The notes below the pieces were generated by a model. That model had not been told where the DNA came from. It made no database searches and worked only from the letters and a program-made list of their open reading frames with translations. From Lobosporangium transversale (Eukaryota; Mortierellomycota; Mortierellomycetes; Mortierellales; Mortierellaceae): a DNA stretch of 64,000 nucleotides. The DNA is taken from positions 473,900 through 537,899 of the forward strand of contig NW_019029005.1 in NCBI RefSeq assembly GCF_002105155.1, written 5' to 3'. Numbering within the stretch: position 1 is the stretch's first letter; each line of letters begins with the position of its first letter. A program made the position numbers and the translations under genes. This document shows, piece after piece, positions 3,001 to 63,399 of the stretch.

Positions 3001-3299
3001 CTGAAGGGATATCAGCAGGCCAAGGTGGATACTACCCATTTATACGATCTCTAGCGCCAACTGCGCCCACTGTTGAATCAGCAGCTATGCCTTTATCGAA
3101 GTCAGCAGAGCCGGAACCGGGAAATCGGCGAAGAAGTGGAAGCTTTATCCCGTTAGCTCCAGTCCAAATGGCAACAAGAAATTCACCAACACAGGCATCC
3201 AGACCGCAAGGAGCTACGACGTCGGCACCGTCTGCTCAATTGAACCGTCCGAAAGGACCAATTGTGATTAACCACACACTCACACTGAATGACCTTTGA
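1..3299 (+). CDS. TPX2: TPX2-like spindle assembly factor, 5' partial
   Basis: The gene enters from the left edge, in frame from base 1, and runs over several exons. Short basic blocks typical of TPX2-family proteins recur: KRPLTVPVSPVFSK (about 970), RPLTQPIPFKFATDE (about 1535), a broken RLTVP/PFQFMTQRRAEAH (about 1845), LTQPHEFHFYTDQ followed out of frame by AKEREAFDQSVRRREEE (2160-2265), and KPLTEPVSPMIGEKRKRY (about 2510). TPX2 proteins activate Aurora A and nucleate spindle microtubules downstream of Ran/importin-alpha; this is family knowledge. Clear donors lie at 664 (gtaagt) and about 1718 (gtgagt). Reading frame breaks occur near 1853, 2210, 2730 and 2880, each a one-base slip with the family pattern continuing in the next frame. 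The C-terminal part (2880-3299) is Ser/Pro-rich without a recognised domain. An AATAAA lies at 3373. Confidence 0.72.
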
Positions 3300-3402
3300 C
3301 CAACATCGGGTCTTAGACATTTCTTTGTAATTTTATTACCGGTATTTTTACTTTATTTTTTTTATGTTATAGAATAAATTACCCAGTTTCGTTCTAATTG
3401 AT

Positions 3403-4694
3403 CTATGATAGAGACGGGGCCTGTTCTATACAGGTACTACGGAAGGCGGTTTTTGATTGAACAATGATCTCTGACAACATAAGATCAAATGCTGCCTGTG
3501 ATCCTGCGTCCTGGAACATCAACTCTTTGACCTTGTTCTCGAGTTCAAATAAATGTCGATCATTTCCTGTTGGAGCCACAGTACGTAATGAATGGGCTAG
3601 GTTAAGCAGATAGTCTCTGTTGGCACCAACTTGGTCCTAATGGGGAAGAGTGATAACGATGGTAAGTCGTTTACTTAAAGATAAAATATTGGAGGAAAAA
3701 AAAAAAAAAAAAAAAAAAAAAAACATCCCTGAAAGATCCCATACCATGTGAAATGTAGATTTGCTTTGCAATTTGCTCCAAAGGTGCAGGTCCAGCAAAA
3801 TCAGAGTTATTAGTGCTTCCAATGTATACAATCGCCTATAAAGCCATAAAAAAAATAAAATAAAATAAAAAAAACACTCTGTATTAGTAAGCAAGCTTGA
3901 TTTTAGAGAGAAAAAAAATTTTATCTCATCAAATGAGATGATCCCAATACCTTTTCCACTACAGGAATGTCACTACCAGGTTGAAAGACATCCAAAAAGT
4001 GTGTTTCGTAACCATTTTTTTCCCGATGATCCAGATATGCTTTTGTCTCTGCAACCTTGGATAATGGGATCTTGTATGCAACACCCCAGGTGATATCGTC
4101 CTGATCTGTAGAATGCTATTAGTCATTAAATAAAATAAAATATGTAAAACGTTGGCTCTGCGGGTAATTACTCAGGGGCCACTGAATACATATTAATATT
4201 TCTAATGAGCTATGATGGTACTATGTACTGTACCTTATCGAGAGTTTTGAATCGTTCTGTGAACTCTTCATAAGGAATTAAAGTGACTACACGGCCTGGT
4301 GCCTCCTCGGTGCCTCGGTGGTCCGTGCTCCTCTGCCAAAACCGGCGGACATGACCTTTGATATACCCAACCTTGCTGTAATAATACAATATTAACAAAT
4401 GTATATGTATATAAAAAAATAAAAAAATAAAAAAATAAAAAAAAATAAAAAATAAAAAAAATAAAAAATAAAAAAAATAAAAAATAAAAAACTTTTAAGC
4501 ATGTCTTTTATTGCTTCACATTATAGACAACATGACATTGGGGTTTGAATGCAATGTTAAAGGAATGGGATGGAGCATTTAAACAAAAAAGCACTGTAAA
4601 AGAATGAAAATAGAATTTTCAGAAGAGGGACGAACCTGTCTTCGTATTCCATATCAGGGCGCCAAATGAGGCTGCCATATCCAAAGAGCCACAT
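3403..4694 (-). CDS. GCG1: ChaC-type gamma-glutamylcyclotransferase, glutathione specific
   Basis: Five exons on the minus strand: 4694-4636, 4375-4234, 4100-3951, 3835-3745 and 3636-3403. The start gives [19 protein letters not shown], the glycine-rich substrate loop of the family. Exon 2 gives [20 protein letters not shown], exon 3 [12 protein letters not shown], exon 4 [18 protein letters not shown] and exon 5 [14 protein letters not shown], in the order seen in ChaC/GCG1 proteins. These cytosolic enzymes cleave glutathione to 5-oxoproline and Cys-Gly. Total length of about 225 residues matches the family. The start of exon 5 is one base out of frame: GPS and GANRDY are separated by an extra T near 3628, so the gene is intact except for one indel. 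Intron 1 holds an (A6T)n simple repeat, and the last intron a poly-A run (poly-T on the coding strand). Confidence 0.88.
4412..4491. repeat. A(5-7)T simple repeat inside ChaC intron 1
   Basis: About 80 bases of repeated A-runs separated by single T residues. The tract lies wholly inside the first ChaC intron, between the donor near 4635 and the acceptor near 4376. Confidence 0.9.
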
Positions 4695-5044
4695 GGTTTA
4701 GGATAAGGTGGTTGGTTTGGTAGAGTGTATGTTGGGTTGGTGGAAACAGAGACAAGGGTTCCGAGAAGAATAAGGAGAGAGGAAGAGAGAGAGAGAGAGG
4801 AGGATAAATTGGAGTGAAGAAAAAAGACAAAGCTTTTTTAAATTAATAGCAACAGTGAATCATGGCCCAATGCGGACATGTGGGACAATGTGGATCGTTT
4901 TTGTCATCACGCAACAATTGATAGTTGAATAAGGAGTTAAAACATATTGATTGACCTGGATTCTTACATTTACATTTACATTTACATTTACATTTACATT
5001 AACATTCTTTTAAAAGACGACATGCAGGACATACAGACACTTCC
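4695..5044. other. intergenic DNA upstream of ChaC
   Basis: This is the 5' flank of the minus-strand ChaC gene. It contains a GA-rich stretch (about 4775-4800) and a TTTACA hexamer array (4965-5003). I see no coding signal. Confidence 0.6.
4965..5003. repeat. TTTACA hexamer tandem repeat
   Basis: About six consecutive copies of TTTACA, degenerating at the right end into TTAACATT. Confidence 0.9.
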
Positions 5045-6240: not shown

Positions 6241-8270
6241 ATAAAAGGTTCCCGCCTGCACGTCCTCCAATGTGATGTCTTTTTTTGATTAGGGAAAGTT
6301 CAGTAGTGACCTTGAAATATTCATAAGCGAAGAGATAGTGAGGTTTTTCTACCGCCTTTCCTTGTTTTATTGCCCTCGTATAATTTGAACTGGAGCCATC
6401 CTGGTCAGTTAATGGAAGAGATGTGGAGACGATAGGAATAGTCAGTGCAATCCAAGACTTCGTCTAGTGCCCTCTTCCTCAATCTTGCTGCTCTGATAGT
6501 TACATTATCCTCTCAATGTCCAGAGCCATCACCCAAATGCATAACGGTGTAATCGGTTGAGGACAACAACTGTCCCTCGGATTCGGCTTGCAACATTTTC
6601 CTTTCGTCTGCATCTATCCCGCCTTCCCTTGCCATGGAAGCCTTGTGGGACTCAATTGTTAAGGCCTGATAAGATGCTTTCTGCTATAACTGTGATCGAC
6701 CTTTGTAGCATCCTTCAAATTTCTAATTGGTGCATCTTCTTTCTTGGCATTGTGCTTTTGCATTCGTTTTTTCTGTTGCTTCTTTTTCGCCTTCCTCCGA
6801 TGGGTGAATGCATAAAACCCGGCCTCGGGTGCTCACGACAGTGATCGATATTAATTGTGGCGTGCGCTCAATATGTTCGACCTGTGAGATCTCCTGTGAC
6901 TCTAAAAGTCAAGGGGATCAAAAACTGCCTTTATTATTGTTGCCAGGCGGGAACCTTTTATGGAGGTCCCTCCATGACTGCCACACAATGTTCTGACCTT
7001 ATGAATAAAAATGGATGTTCCCCTGAGATGCACTCTCAAACCTCGATACGTGACAACTAGTCAGAAAAGATGGACCGGAACTGGTTTCTATGTGATCCTT
7101 TCGCTATATAGAATGATTGCGTATCTCTAAAGTTTTCAAGAAAGGACTAACGATTAGTACTGGACATATTTGATTTCAGGATCATAACTACGACTCGAGC
7201 TTTCTTATGTCCTGCGACGCTGCAGTCGTCCTTGATGAGCCACTTCACGGTGAAGATCCTTTCCATTGAGTTGATACCCCTTGAAGCTATCGAACTCAGT
7301 TTGATCGTGACTCTCGAATTGACGTTTGAAGGCTAGAGGTAAAGACTTCGAGAGCTACTTCGAAACTGAGGATTATTAATCAGGCCAAGCGTTTCAAGAT
7401 TCTTTGAGTAATCATTGTCTCAAATTGCACAGAGCAGTACAGATGTTGGTGAGTTCGCAAGTCAAATACATATTGATAACGTCGACCACGTCATAAGCCC
7501 TAAACTTCCGTCGACGGTGCAAAAGGGACTGCACTAGCTTGCAGACTCGTTCGTACGCAAACAAACTAGAGCCTCTTGGGTATCACAATCCTACCATTCA
7601 CCCCATCACGGTACTCTATGCATGGATCTGCTTCGTTTGCATACAGGCAGACATCGAAGACAGAGTGAAGGCCTGTTGCCAGCTGGTCCCTGTCATGGTC
7701 GCTCAGGATTGGATCTCTCGAAGGCCTTTTTGGATGCGCTTCATGGCTTGAGGACAAGTTCAAACCCCGTTCCGTGAATTTTTCTCAAAGATGCTCATAT
7801 CGTTTTCCAAAGCGTCCCTCCTCTCTGTCTTCTGGCTTGTCGTTCCGTCCTTGCTTTTTCTTTCTCGGCGCAAGGACTCTCACTAATGTGTATGGTCAGA
7901 TTGTTCGTTTTGAGAAGATCCTTCATCTTGAGAGCTAGGGACCTGCCTACATCGATGATGGGCTTGCATTTGATCTTGTATGGACTACTTTACTGTAGAT
8001 GCTATGATCGAACGTGTCAAAGAAATCTATGAGCAAAATGAGCAGAGTTTTCCGCCAAGGAAGTGCCTATGTCAGCTTCCGGAGGCGAAACCCCGCAATC
8101 CGCGAGTATTTGAAGGACTGCAGTCCTGTGGCTAATGCTTAAGCAAAAGAAAGGAAAAAGTGGCGGCAGCGATAAAAAAAACGAAAAGAGGTATTTTTTT
8201 TAAGGCTCAACATTCAGCAGAGAAGGTTGATGAAAGATACAGGAACAAGAGGGCAGTGGTAACAGAATCA
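6241..8270 (-). pseudogene. degenerate XPG/FEN1-like nuclease, copy A, without Fanzor module
   Basis: This stretch is a diverged direct repeat of 33,515-35,560, with long stretches of near identity (for example around 6270-6400 and 7540-7750). On the minus strand it keeps DQLATGLHSVFDVCLY and NEADPCI of the flap-nuclease I-region (about 7630-7690), but the Asp-x-Asp segment that follows is destroyed by a deletion and a stop. The position equivalent to the start codon of copy B (about 8130) is not ATG. Substitutions, stops and indels are spread throughout, so this is a dead copy rather than an error-ridden live one. Homology stops at its left end close to the point where the Fanzor half of copy B begins. 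The upstream flank (8150-8270) is also shared with copy B. Confidence 0.78.
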
Positions 8271-31686: not shown

Positions 31687-31882
31687 CATGGGAGCGTTCT
31701 GGTTGGAAATCTTGGATGTGATTTGTCTATCATTAATTTTTAACAATGAACCTTATTATCTGTTGATCTGTACGGTTTTTAAAGTTAGTCCGGAAATTCA
31801 GGGGCAAAAGATTAGAGAGGATGGAGACGAAAATAAACAGAACTTACAAATTTTTTGTGGGTGTGCCGGCCCAATATTGTGT
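31341..31882. other. 3' flanks of MAK16 and the XPG-Fanzor gene
   Basis: Convergent 3' region with an A-run at about 31,651-31,683. A short open frame (31,688-31,855) has no recognisable features. Confidence 0.5.
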
Positions 31883-34800
31883 CTAGCGTCGTGCGCGCTT
31901 TGCAGCCGGAGCAGGCGACTCTTCCGTGGGCTTGTACTTTGCAGGCCTCTCTTGTCTCTCAATTTGAGCAAGACCGATTCTTGCGATGTTTTCCGCCCCT
32001 ACTGCGTCACGGTCGAAGAATACTTACATGCCCGGCAATATTTAGAGCGAGGGTACACCGTCTCTAAAAAGCTATCCAGAGGGGTCGGGGACAGCGGGCG
32101 CTGGTGTAAAATTCGTGCGCTCCTACAGTAAGTGTCCTGCCTTTGACCTAAGTGTTTCAAATGGCAGTCGTTTATTAGCAAGGGTTCTATGGCTTTCCAG
32201 CTTTTCTTACTTTTTTAAAAAAAAGCCATACCTGTGTGACAAGATGTCTCGTTATAGCAGTGTGCTTGCTGGGAACTCCTTTACTACTTTCAAAGGACCC
32301 TAGGCCGACGACAAGCACTCCTTTATCCCCAAGCATCTTCAACACTCGCTGTACGCGTAGTCGAACGTAGCTCGTTGAGCCTTTCGTAGGTCCCATTTTT
32401 TTTTCAGGATGCCATCTGGATTCGTAGAACTCTTGAAGCACATCCAAATTCGTTGATCCTGTCTGTGTCTGAGACTCCTCGTTCATCCATTGAAAGTACT
32501 CATTATACGTATCCCTTCCAAACACAGGGATGGCGCTCTCAACCTCAATCATTCCTTTTTCACGCTTCCTTTTGTTCAACAGGTGATTGAAGCGGAGGAC
32601 GGGAGGTACAAGAACCTGCTTCTCACCTTTACCGTTTGCCGCAAGTTAGGGTTGTGAGGGTCCAGCGAGGAAAACGTAAGGGCGTTAACAATACCAGGAT
32701 CACATCCGACGATAGTTGTGGTGTTTGCGGATGGGCATCGCCCTGGTTTGTTGAATGTGAGCTCAACGTTTTCAAGCAGCTTGGAGCTCCTCTTCCAGTT
32801 TATGTTCTGTAGTCTTCATCTGTTAGGTCTTCACCGGCCGCCTTTGAACACGTCGTGTTGAGAAATCCCTGAGAAAGCTCCAGTTCTTGGCTGGGGTCTT
32901 CTTCATCTACGTCAGACTGCTGCTGTCTCTTCGTCTGGGTTGTGTCATAGGCAAGTAGATTCAGAACTAGACCGTTGGTAGAAATCGTTCCTTTGAGTTT
33001 GAACCGAGTTAGATCTTTGTCCTGTGACTGCAGGGATACTTTGTCTTGATATCCACGAACCATGCGATCACCTCCAATGTCACAAAAGAGAGCCTGTATC
33101 AAAACCCCTTTTGTTCCCTGTACACACTCATACATTGCAGTCTTGGAAGGATTATTGAGAGGCAGAATACGCTCCAGCAGCTGCTTGGTATCTTCGTTCG
33201 CCCAGAGGATGTCAACTAGGGCGTGTTCAGACAGATACACATACCCGGGTGACCAGGGGACGTAGGAAAGTCTGAGTATTTTTTCACTTTTTTGTTCTCC
33301 CGCAAAAAAAACTCAATGTCGCTCATATCTTCGTTTGTTTTCTCGACATCAAACTAGAAAAAAAAAAAAAAAAAAAAAAAAGTCTGAATAAAAAAAAAAA
33401 AAAAAAAAAAAACAAAAACCATAAAAGCTATACCATTGCGTTCCTGTAGTGCTGCCTTAATGATGTCTGTACTTGGCCCATTAGTAGCTCTGACGCTCTT
33501 GGAAATGTGATCTTTTTGGGATCAAAGCCTTGACGTCCCCCAATGTGATGTCTATTTCCTTTATTGGGGAAAGTTCAGTGGTGGCCTTGAAATGTTCATA
33601 AGCGAGGGATGTGGGGCGTTTCTACCGCCTTTCCTTGTTTTTTTGCCCTCGCGTAAGCTGAATTGGGGCCACCTTGACCACTCAAAAGAAGGGTGGCGAG
33701 ACGGAAGGAATAATCATTGCTATCCAAGACCTCGTCCAGTGCCTTTTTCCTCGACTTTGCTGCCCCTGGTAACCGCATGATCCTCTCAATGTCCAAGGCA
33801 ATCGCCCAGTATGCATAGCGGCGTAGTCGGTTGAGGACAACAACTGCCCCTCGGATCTGGCTTGCAATACTATCCCTTTCATCTGCGTCCAGTCCGCCTT
33901 TCCTTGCCATGGAGGCCTTAAGGGACCCAATTGTTAAGGCCTTGATAGGGTCTTACTGCTGTAGCTGTGATCAACCTTCGTAGCATCCTTCAAGTTCCTA
34001 ATTGGTGCACCTTCTTTTTTGCCCTGTGGGGCTTCTTGCCTTTGTGCTTCCGCTTTTGTTTTTTCTGTTGCTTCTTTTTTGCCTTTCTCCGACGTGGTGG
34101 ATGCTTAAGGCCCGGCCTATCGTGCTGACGGCAGTTACTGATATCAACTGTGCGCCCATTCAATATGCTCGCCTTGTCAGAAAAGATGGGCCGGAACTGG
34201 TTCCTATGTGACCCTTCCGCTATATAGAATGATGGTCGCCTCTACATTATTCAAGAAAGGGACTAACGATTAGTATTGGGGACGTCTGGTTTCAAGGCCA
34301 AAAACTATAGCTTGAGCTTTCTTACGTTCTGCGGCGCTGCGCTCGCCTTTGCTGAGCCATTCTATGGCGAAGATCCTTTCCATTGAGTAGACGCTGCTTG
34401 AAGTTATCGAACTCATTGTTCGATGGTAACGCTTGGGCCGACGTTTGATGGCCGGAAGTAAAAATGCGGAGAGCTACACTGAAACGGCCTTCCTCAGAGG
34501 CTACGTTCCTTCCCAACACCTTACTAGCTTCCCTTAGGTAGCCGAAGCATTTTATTGTAGTTCTGTTCCACGCAACCTTTCGAATTAATCGAAGATTATT
34601 AACGGGCCTAACGTCTCGAGGTTCCTTGAGTAGTCATTGCCTGCGATGGCACAGAATAACACCAGATGCGCGTGTGTTGGCAGTCTTAGTGCTTGGATAA
34701 CGTTGTCTACGTCGTAAACCCCAAACTTCCGTCTACGGTGCGGAAGGGGTCGCACTAGGAAGCAGACTCGTTCGTACGCAAAAAAATCAGAGTCTTGGGA

Positions 34801-35356
34801 TATCACGATCCTATCATTCTCCTCATCATGGCACCCTATGCATGGGTCCGCTTCATATGCACACAGACAGACATCGAAGACAGAACTAAGGCCTGTTGCC
34901 AGCTGATCCTTGTCCTGGACGCTCAGGGTGTGGACTTCTCGAAGACCCTTCTGGATGCGCCTCATGACTTGAGGACGAGTCCATACCCCACTCCGAGAAT
35001 TTCTCTCGAAGGTGCTCATATTGTTCTCCAAAGCGTCCATATTTTTTTGTCTTATGGCTTGCCGTTCTGTCCTTGCTTTTTCTTTCTCAGTACAAGGTTC
35101 CCCATCAATATGTATAGTCAGTTGTCCGTTGTGAAAAGATCCTTTATCTCGAGTGCCAGGGACCTTCCTACATCAATGATGGTTTCGTTTTTCATCTTTG
35201 CATGGACGACTCTGCGGAGGATGTCGTAATAGAACGTACCGAGGAGATCTAAATGAACAGAATGGTCAGGATTTGCCGCCAAGAAATGCCCACGTCAGTT
35301 TCCGAAGGTAAAACCCCGCGATCCGCAACCAGTTTGAAGAAGGACTTCAGCCCCAT
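31883..35356 (-). CDS. composite nuclease: N-terminal XPG/FEN1-like module plus C-terminal Fanzor (TnpB-like) module
   Basis: The start at 35,356 gives MGLKSFFKLVADRGVLP, typical of the XPG/FEN1 N-terminus. Next come IHIDGEPCTEKEKA (about 35,100), the I-region with YEADPCIG and SQDSDFFAY (34,860-34,775), and GNDYSRNLETLG (about 34,640). A Lys/Arg-rich segment lies at 34,033-34,100 and a helical stretch at 33,930-33,540. The Fanzor half follows: VGCDPGIVNALTFSS (RuvC-I, about 32,700), VVGLGSFESSKGVPSKH (about 32,300), a probable 84-base intron (32,148-32,231), VGAHEFYTSARCPR, YPRSKYCRACK (zinc ribbon) and DRDAVGAENIARIG (RuvC-III, about 31,980), with a stop at 31,883. Fanzors are RNA-guided DNA nucleases carried by eukaryotic transposons; XPG/FEN1 enzymes cut flaps. 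Frame slips occur near 35,250, 35,130, 34,590, 33,500, 33,290, 32,080 and 32,010. Whether this is one protein or two adjacent ORFs of one element cannot be settled by eye. Confidence 0.75.
32148..32231 (-). other. probable intron in the Fanzor module
   Basis: On the minus strand a gtatgg donor follows LVTQ, and a cttag acceptor precedes VKGRTLTVGAHEFYTS. Removing these 84 bases keeps the frame between the two RuvC segments. Confidence 0.6.
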
Positions 35357-35416
35357 GGTCAATATCTAAGCGAAAAGAGAAAGAAAAAAGGAAAAATGGT
35401 GGTATGAAAAGAAATG

Positions 35417-35451
<35 letters not shown>

Positions 35452-35560
35452 GACAAAGGTATAAAAGGATGAGCTTTTTTATGGTGTAAAGATTCAAAGC
35501 GAATAGATAAAGAATATTGAGGGAAAGATACAGGAACAAGTGGCAGTGGTAAAAGGGATG
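33515..35560. repeat. repeat copy B, partner of 6241-8270
   Basis: A direct-orientation diverged repeat of copy A. It covers the XPG-like half of the composite gene and about 200 bases of its 5' flank, including a shared block near 35,520-35,555 and 8235-8265. Confidence 0.8.
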
Positions 35561-36180
35561 GGACTTTGAAGGAGGAAGACAATGATCCCTTTTTATATCC
35601 TGGATTGATGATGAGTTTTATCATTGTCTCATATAGTTTTGATATCGATCCTTTGCTTCACAGGCCACATCAATCTTTATTCAGTTCCTTTGTTTGGATT
35701 GGGGTTTTGTCCCAGTCAATAGCAGAGATTGAAAATAAATACAAGCTCTCGCATGAACGAGATTGGAAACAATAGCATTGAGATACCAAAGTAAGCATTC
35801 GAAAAATATATATAGCATATTATACTCGGTAGTTTCTAGGTGAGGCGGACCCACCTATGACTACAAAGGGCTTTGCGCAAAGATTCTGGTTCGACAGATT
35901 AGTGGATACAAAATAAACTGAAATTAATTTTAATGACCAGTCACGTCACACCACTTGCAATAACAAGCGAGTCAATTAGCTGCCAATACATTTAAGAGTA
36001 TTCAAAAAATATAAGGGATCCCGACCAAATGGAACGGGCTATACTTTAATTTACTAGGTCACGTCTATGATGCACTAGAGATTTAAATTGTGAACTTGAT
36101 CTCTGTTCACTTCCAATTTCTTCTAGGCCTTTGCTTTCGTTTCTTTCATTTATTATATCGATATTATTTTTTGCATTGCC
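35561..36180. other. unassigned DNA upstream of the nuclease gene
   Basis: AT-rich sequence with no convincing gene. A promoter for the exon at 36,181 may lie here. Confidence 0.45.
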
Positions 36181-63318: not shown

Positions 63319-63399
63319 CGTCACCTGCAGGGTTCGAACCTGCGCGGGAAATCCCATACACTTAGCAGGCATACGCCTTAACCACTCGGCCAAAGTGAC
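63319..63399 (-). tRNA. tRNA-Ser (anticodon GCT)
   Basis: An 81-base class II tRNA. The acceptor arms GTCACTT and AGGTGAC pair fully (one G-U). The A box (TGGCCGAGTGGTTAAGGC) and B box (GGTTCGAACC) are canonical, and the anticodon loop CTGCTAA gives GCT. A long variable arm (ATGGGATTTCCCGC) is present as expected for serine tRNA, the discriminator is G, and there is no intron. Confidence 0.96.

Follow-up and report, generated by a model that had tools for sequence, protein, structure and literature searches.

The 64,000-nucleotide stretch of Lobosporangium transversale DNA analyzed here, referred to as the window, carries on its minus strand the decayed remains of one copy of a repeated element. 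The sole recognizable gene of this element joins an XPG/FEN1-like nuclease, encoded by exon 1, to a Fanzor (TnpB-like) nuclease, encoded by exons 2-4 (table 1). Fanzors are RNA-guided nucleases of eukaryotes. We put at roughly 0.6 the probability that this is a decayed transposable element whose gene specified one protein, composed of an XPG/FEN1 half, a linker, and a Fanzor half, and that a guided cut by this protein would have been followed by flap trimming and copying of the element. That the fusion itself is real and conserved is, judging from sequence comparison, very likely. Sequence comparison gives good support to a single gene for both halves and to the persistence of this arrangement across several families and four genera of Mortierellaceae.

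A Decayed Element with Two Nuclease Modules

In the window (C48:473900-537899 of a 42.7-Mb genome), translations and profiles bear out a preliminary description of the sequence, according to which an XPG/FEN1-like module is followed by a Fanzor module on the minus strand, with the motifs of each in order. Profiles built from relatives recover the XPG part with an i-E of 2e-84 and the RuvC part with an i-E of 6.9e-39. The core of the unit delimited in that description (31883..35356) stands, but its bounds do not, as the element runs on to 31757 and upstream to about 35816. Similarly, the modules had been described as lying head to tail without a gap of intergenic appearance, and although they do form one unit, some of the gaps in the frame are three introns and the copy itself is a pseudogene. 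All three introns keep their GT and AG ends. Relative to a second copy on contig C2, to which it is 97.6% identical, the window copy has 17 non-triplet indels distributed across its four exons, and it is dead. Comparison of the entire remnant from 31757 to 35792 (minus strand) with C2 shows 26 indels, of which 24 are non-triplet, a pattern of decay that is rich in indels relative to substitutions.

Table 1. Features of the XPG-Fanzor element copy in the window
Feature	Positions	Strand	Basis or remark
Family A XPG-Fanzor element remnant	31757..35816	-	3′ end sharp at 31757; 5′ end of a full copy missing
Exon 1, XPG/FEN1-like nuclease, broken frame; MGLKSFFKLV start at 35356	34326..35356	-	Translation, profiles
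Intron 1, GTAAG...TGTAG	34242..34325	-	Same position in family B; annotated P0005 spliced alike
Exon 2, FYIAEGSHRNQFRPIF motif, Lys-rich stretch/linker, N-terminal part of Fanzor, broken frame	33434..34241	-	Translation
Intron 2	33354..33433	-	Comparison with C2 copy
Exon 3, Fanzor with RuvC-I (CDPGIVNA), broken frame	32232..33353	-	Translation, profiles
Intron 3	32148..32231	-	Comparison with C2 copy
Exon 4, alternative Glu (EFYTS), zinc ribbon (YCRACK), RuvC-III (DRDAVGAENI), broken frame	31884..32147	-	Translation, profiles
3′ noncoding element end; candidate place of a guide RNA	31757..31883	-	Comparison of element ends

Two further features of the window may be recorded. A second and older remnant lies at 6278-8118 (minus strand) and contains the XPG part, the linker, and the N-terminal part of Fanzor; the RuvC part was not found there. 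An Rfam scan of the window returned tRNA only, and a tRNA-Ser with anticodon GCT is located at 63319-63399 (minus strand).

Copies, Families, and Linkage of the Two Halves

The element is abundant in the same genome, where the XPG piece has at least 111 matches and the Fanzor piece at least 152, both counts being lower bounds. We used the RuvC-I stretch of a second family, family B, as the query for a linkage count, and 56 of the 101 Fanzor matches listed have an XPG-like match 329-2204 bp upstream on the same strand (60 when three matches to the XPG exon tail, left out here, are included). Among the same 101 matches, the controls gave 8 on the opposite strand and 2 downstream. After neighboring matches were merged and two further XPG places were taken into account, the count became 55 of 96 Fanzor places. 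Among the remaining 41 places, which have no upstream XPG match, are eight whose match spans 25 aa, a set of fragments on the opposite strand close to family B, 5′-truncated copies, and family B copies that lack the XPG exon. An earlier count, made with the zinc-ribbon family and a family A XPG query, linked the two parts in 38 of 69 cases.

Family A, to which the window copy belongs, and family B are about 36% identical over the aligned protein and have all three intron positions in common. At least one further diverged family also has both parts (L082, L083, L073, and L006 with L071). Contiguous copies were assembled from overlapping loci. In family B, at least 14 copies contain a full-length, stop-free XPG exon at 98-100% identity, so this family multiplied recently. 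Three other family B copies (C2:424825, C79:191387, and C1:3024) keep no more than about the final 32 residues of the XPG exon, the pattern expected of deletion derivatives, and some copies with only this tail occur several times.

Contigs C48 and C50 (L007 and L008) contain the same copies at nearly equal spacing with a common right flank, and they look like duplicated or allelic contigs. Separately, an opposite-strand Fanzor fragment, whose identity to family A reaches 82% over 49 aa, is found about 1 kb upstream of the family B XPG exon (C37:42496-42810, C1:576095-576412, and C84:812733-813050, all on the minus strand, and others).

Evidence That the Two Halves Form One Gene

The gene structure is best seen in the C2 copy, in which an ATG at 1288 is followed by introns at 2325-2408, 3223-3316, and 4441-4523 and by a stop near 4793. 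Its single frameshift, near 4265, is one that eight compared copies either lack or cannot show. The family B copy L081 has the same three introns and one frame break, in exon 2. Database searches retrieved 16 proteins, and by reading these we find parts of both halves in ten (P0001-P0004, P0006, and P0012-P0016), XPG and linker only in two (P0005 and P0007), and no XPG domain in four (P0008-P0011), all from L. transversale. The halves are thus not always separate genes among the homologs. The joined predicted proteins come from Benniella sp. (P0002 and P0014), Mortierella alpina (P0003 and P0015), Mortierella sp. GBA43 (P0004), Podila verticillata (P0012, 1260 aa), and L. transversale, and from one contig of 4910 bp that encodes P0013. 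The named sources are all Mortierellaceae, with GBA43 placed there by its genus. Given that P0013 has 1183 aa on a contig of this size, its frame is probably uninterrupted; it had no match among phage records. In each protein search the 8000 candidates with most words in common with the query were scored, so the fusion may extend beyond the Mortierellaceae.

It might be argued that there are two separate genes, an XPG-like gene followed head to tail by a Fanzor gene, which gene predictors have joined. In line with such an arrangement, the XPG frame of both families runs into a TAA inside the putative donor of intron 1, and the four annotated L. transversale proteins without an XPG domain could be read as products of a Fanzor gene. 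A TAA would be found at this place if it were a real stop codon as well as if it were part of a donor, so the donor alone does not decide between one gene and two. However, the phase and positions of the introns are equal in families A and B, and two annotated proteins cross intron 1: P0005, in the way we modeled it, and P0010, which starts with the final few residues encoded by the XPG exon, so that the crossings represent both families. Furthermore, the exon 2 motif FY.A.GS..NQFRP.F is conserved at the protein level, and in family A it lies some 110 codons ahead of that exon's first Met. Based on this conservation, on the joined predicted proteins, and on P0013 in particular, which fits its 4910-bp contig, we favor one protein and regard two genes as very improbable. 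The other structural objection, that the modules lie together in one place by chance or through an artefact of assembly, could draw on the broken state of every exon of the window copy, but it is refuted by the same arrangement in dozens of copies and in other species, and its probability is negligible. Thus, the introns common to diverged families, the joined proteins, and the linkage count all support the view, already expressed in the preliminary description, that the XPG/FEN1-like and Fanzor modules belong to one mobile-element unit and probably to one polypeptide.

Conservation of the XPG/FEN1-like and Fanzor Halves

A profile of six XPG-like domains matches FEN1 (1a76) with an E of 1e-7 and Rad2 with an E of 4.9e-5, and the match to FEN1 is also obtained with a whole-protein profile (1.6e-6) and with the wider alignment A3 (9.5e-5). 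The positions of FEN1 were mapped with this wider profile alignment, and we assume the FEN1 residue numbering for the active site. On this basis the six domains show no variation at the positions of D34, D86, E158, E160 (as D), D181, and D233; at that of D179, five keep D and P0004 has N. A Lys at +7 and an Arg at +14 after the D86 position are likewise invariant in the six domains, and we take these to be the equivalents of K93 and R100 of FEN1. The half is diverged enough that Pfam XPG_I stays below its curated cut-off in every single protein tested, and one linked genomic copy (C13:672316) rises above it, with 25.9 versus 24.9 bits. The pattern CxC..[E][AS]D.CI at the active site of this half (residues 166-176 in the first row of alignment A5) is also invariant in the six domains, and just its last Cys has a counterpart in the FEN1 alignment.

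In the Fanzor half, the DPG of RuvC-I is present in families A and B and in P0002, P0004, P0012, P0013, and P0015, and it is replaced by DSG in P0003 and P0014. The alternative catalytic Glu is found in HEFYTSARC in family A, in HEYYTSAKC in family B and P0013, and in NEFWTSAKC in P0012. Both DPG and an alternative Glu six residues before the zinc ribbon are given as fingerprints of Fanzors in a published account (PMC10711439). PF07282, the TNB or zinc-ribbon family, scores above its curated cut-off in family B, in P0011, P0012, P0013, and P0015, and in most of 69 places in the genome; P0004, the gene model of which ends early, has no match to it. A profile of the C-terminal half matches the mimivirus TnpB-like protein L79 (E 0.0015) and SpuFz1 (E 0.32), with unrelated Cdc45 chains following from 0.48, and the wider profile brings SpuFz1 to 0.076. 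Taken at the level of sequence, conservation of the predicted catalytic residues of both halves is well supported.

Selection figures were calculated from intact copies alone, since dN/dS over all copies mixes in broken frames and was dropped. For family A, the pooled pN/pS of these copies is 0.60 for the XPG exon (10 copies), 0.83 and 0.52 for the two parts of exon 2 (25 and 17 copies), 0.22 for exon 3 (8 copies), and 0.41 for exon 4 (19 copies). The ratio is therefore below 1 in all segments, and in this family the XPG exon is less constrained than exon 3. Pairwise comparison of P0012, P0013, and P0004 gives 34-39% identity for the XPG half and 37-49% for the RuvC half. The distances of the two halves correlate weakly (r 0.53, p 0.075), and their congruence is not significant.

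Element Ends and the Search for a Transposase or Guide RNA

In family A, 23 copies have a common sharp right end, CCGTACAGATCAACAGATA, which is followed by 21 distinct flanks; in two cases a pair of copies has the same flank. Across the genome, at least 38 right ends of this kind were found at no more than two mismatches and at least 19 left ends (CCTTAAACCGTCAACCTGGC...) at no more than three, and the reversed pattern of either was found 0 times. Of five copies available with both ends, two have lengths of 5.74 and 5.77 kb and the others are shorter, at 4.1-5.4 kb, from which we take a full copy to be about 5.7 kb. The left end is preceded by TAT in all 18 copies, by CTAT in 16 of the 18, and by ACTAT in 12. 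Long terminal inverted repeats were not found, the ends having just TATC...GATA in common, and in the five copies with both flanks no target duplication is evident, the right flank being free. Six left ends (C57:20369, C100:110662, C106:161317, C53:26607, C65:265664, and C84:870897) have no listed right end nearby, and three of them, which have a common variant sequence, may be parts of another element with the same end.

No transposase was found in the element, and the 2.1 kb 5′ of the gene contain, as judged by eye, no frame common to the three copies compared. A frame of 237 aa on C69 was considered as a transposase and rejected, since it is broken in C2 and C101. The preliminary description had suggested a search for a conserved guide-RNA (omega-like) region 3′ of the RuvC-III end, and folding did not point to one: no fold at the 3′ end of the element is better than those of shuffled sequences (191 of 200 at least as good; z 1.34).

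A Possible Mechanism and Its Alternatives

We propose that the product of the element's gene is a single bifunctional protein, about 1000-1260 aa long, in which an N-terminal XPG/FEN1-type 5′ nuclease is tethered through a Lys-rich linker to a C-terminal Fanzor1-like nuclease. The Fanzor half may be guided by RNA derived from the right end of the element and the adjoining flank, and it would cut an empty site next to CTAT or TAT, the short motif found just before the left end. The FEN1-like half could then trim whatever 5′ overhang or flap the RuvC cut produces, and trimming of this kind would favor repair that copies the element from an intact locus, whereby the element would be kept or spread. 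Trimming of flaps by the XPG half at the donor or the target, the role suggested in the preliminary description, is plausible. For trim-and-copy as a complete mechanism we would offer slightly less than even odds; the undetected guide RNA structure and the XPG-less copies speak against it. It has been suggested in print that Fanzor cuts could promote the propagation of transposons, and the fusion would add an end-processing step to that idea.

Several other readings accept a single protein and differ in what its XPG half would do. The half could act on RNA or on branched transposition intermediates rather than on guided-cut ends, with a part in the maturation of guide RNA or mRNA or in strand transfer, and this is compatible with the lack of a transposase in the element and with the fact that PIN-like and FEN1-like nucleases also cut flaps that contain RNA. 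Nevertheless, residues of FEN1 type and a helix-turn region following D233 favor DNA flaps, by likeness only, and we consider this reading rather unlikely. It is also conceivable that the half is a DNA-binding platform or a passenger whose catalysis is not needed, as the weaker constraint on the XPG exon among family A copies, the N at one metal position of P0004, and the existence of copies without XPG might suggest. However, the other active-site positions are invariant in six diverged proteins, and the identity among the XPG halves of P0012, P0013, and P0004 is not far below that among their RuvC halves, which makes a dispensable nuclease quite improbable. A bolder version of our own proposal makes the element, in which we found no transposase, a self-contained mobile system. 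One protein would combine the RNA-guided cut with the activity of a flap nuclease, and by installing or restoring the element at sites that match the guide (guided copy-in) it would do the work of a transposase. We regard this as improbable, if marginally less so than a passenger half.

Relation to Known Systems and Implications

The preliminary description knew of no flap-nuclease partner for Fanzor, and this agrees with our searches, as no paper on an XPG/FEN1-Fanzor fusion appeared among the matches listed. Nor did the literature searched, which consisted mostly of papers free of subscription, yield any paper that joins Fanzor with XPG or Fanzor with Mortierella. Within that literature, Fanzor nucleases and XPG/FEN1 nucleases are known and the natural fusion of a FEN1-type nuclease with Fanzor is new. 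Published accounts give most Fanzor1 proteins a length of 600-700 aa and single out one inserted domain, FRI (PMC11423790). The Fanzor half resembles SpuFz1, GtFz1, and PpFz1 in its RuvC-I DPG, alternative Glu, zinc ribbon, and RuvC-III, and the elements resemble those of Fanzor1 in being multicopy and sharp-ended; their left end also follows a short motif, as described for Spu-1 (PMC10432273 and PMC11423790). Here, in contrast, a nuclease of about 330 aa resembling XPG/FEN1 precedes Fanzor, and the protein reaches about 1000-1260 aa.

With FEN1 and the XPG-Rad2 5′ nucleases the N-terminal half shares the acidic positions, the spacing of Lys and Arg, the ND..N region, and the core profile matches, whereas it differs from them in being diverged below the Pfam cut-off, fused to a predicted RNA-guided nuclease, and located on a mobile element. 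The element has variable 5′ regions and no recognizable inverted repeats, as do the unclassified Fanzor1 elements of Mucor, MCi-2 among them, but for the Mucor elements target duplications of 11-12 bp are reported, and one subfamily has part of a Crypton transposase; a search of that 2013 survey of Fanzor elements for XPG, FEN, and flap found none of these terms (PMC3627910). The absence of terminal inverted repeats, the lack of a visible target duplication, and the fixed left-end motif recall IS200/IS605 elements with TnpB. This likeness concerns the ends only, as our element is eukaryotic and has an extra nuclease domain, and no TnpA (Y1 HUH) was seen by eye in the 5′ part of three copies.

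The pairing of a guided nuclease with an end-trimming nuclease has a counterpart in the recruitment of an exonuclease to Cas9, although the latter is reported to be man-made and noncovalent (PMC9226073), whereas the fusion described here is natural. It would also supply, ready-made, a guided nuclease with end trimming of its own, the combination that engineers assembled for Cas9. The fusion also makes the natural role of Fanzor testable. That a covalent FEN1-type partner has been kept across genera suggests that selection has favored the processing of guided-cut ends in these elements.
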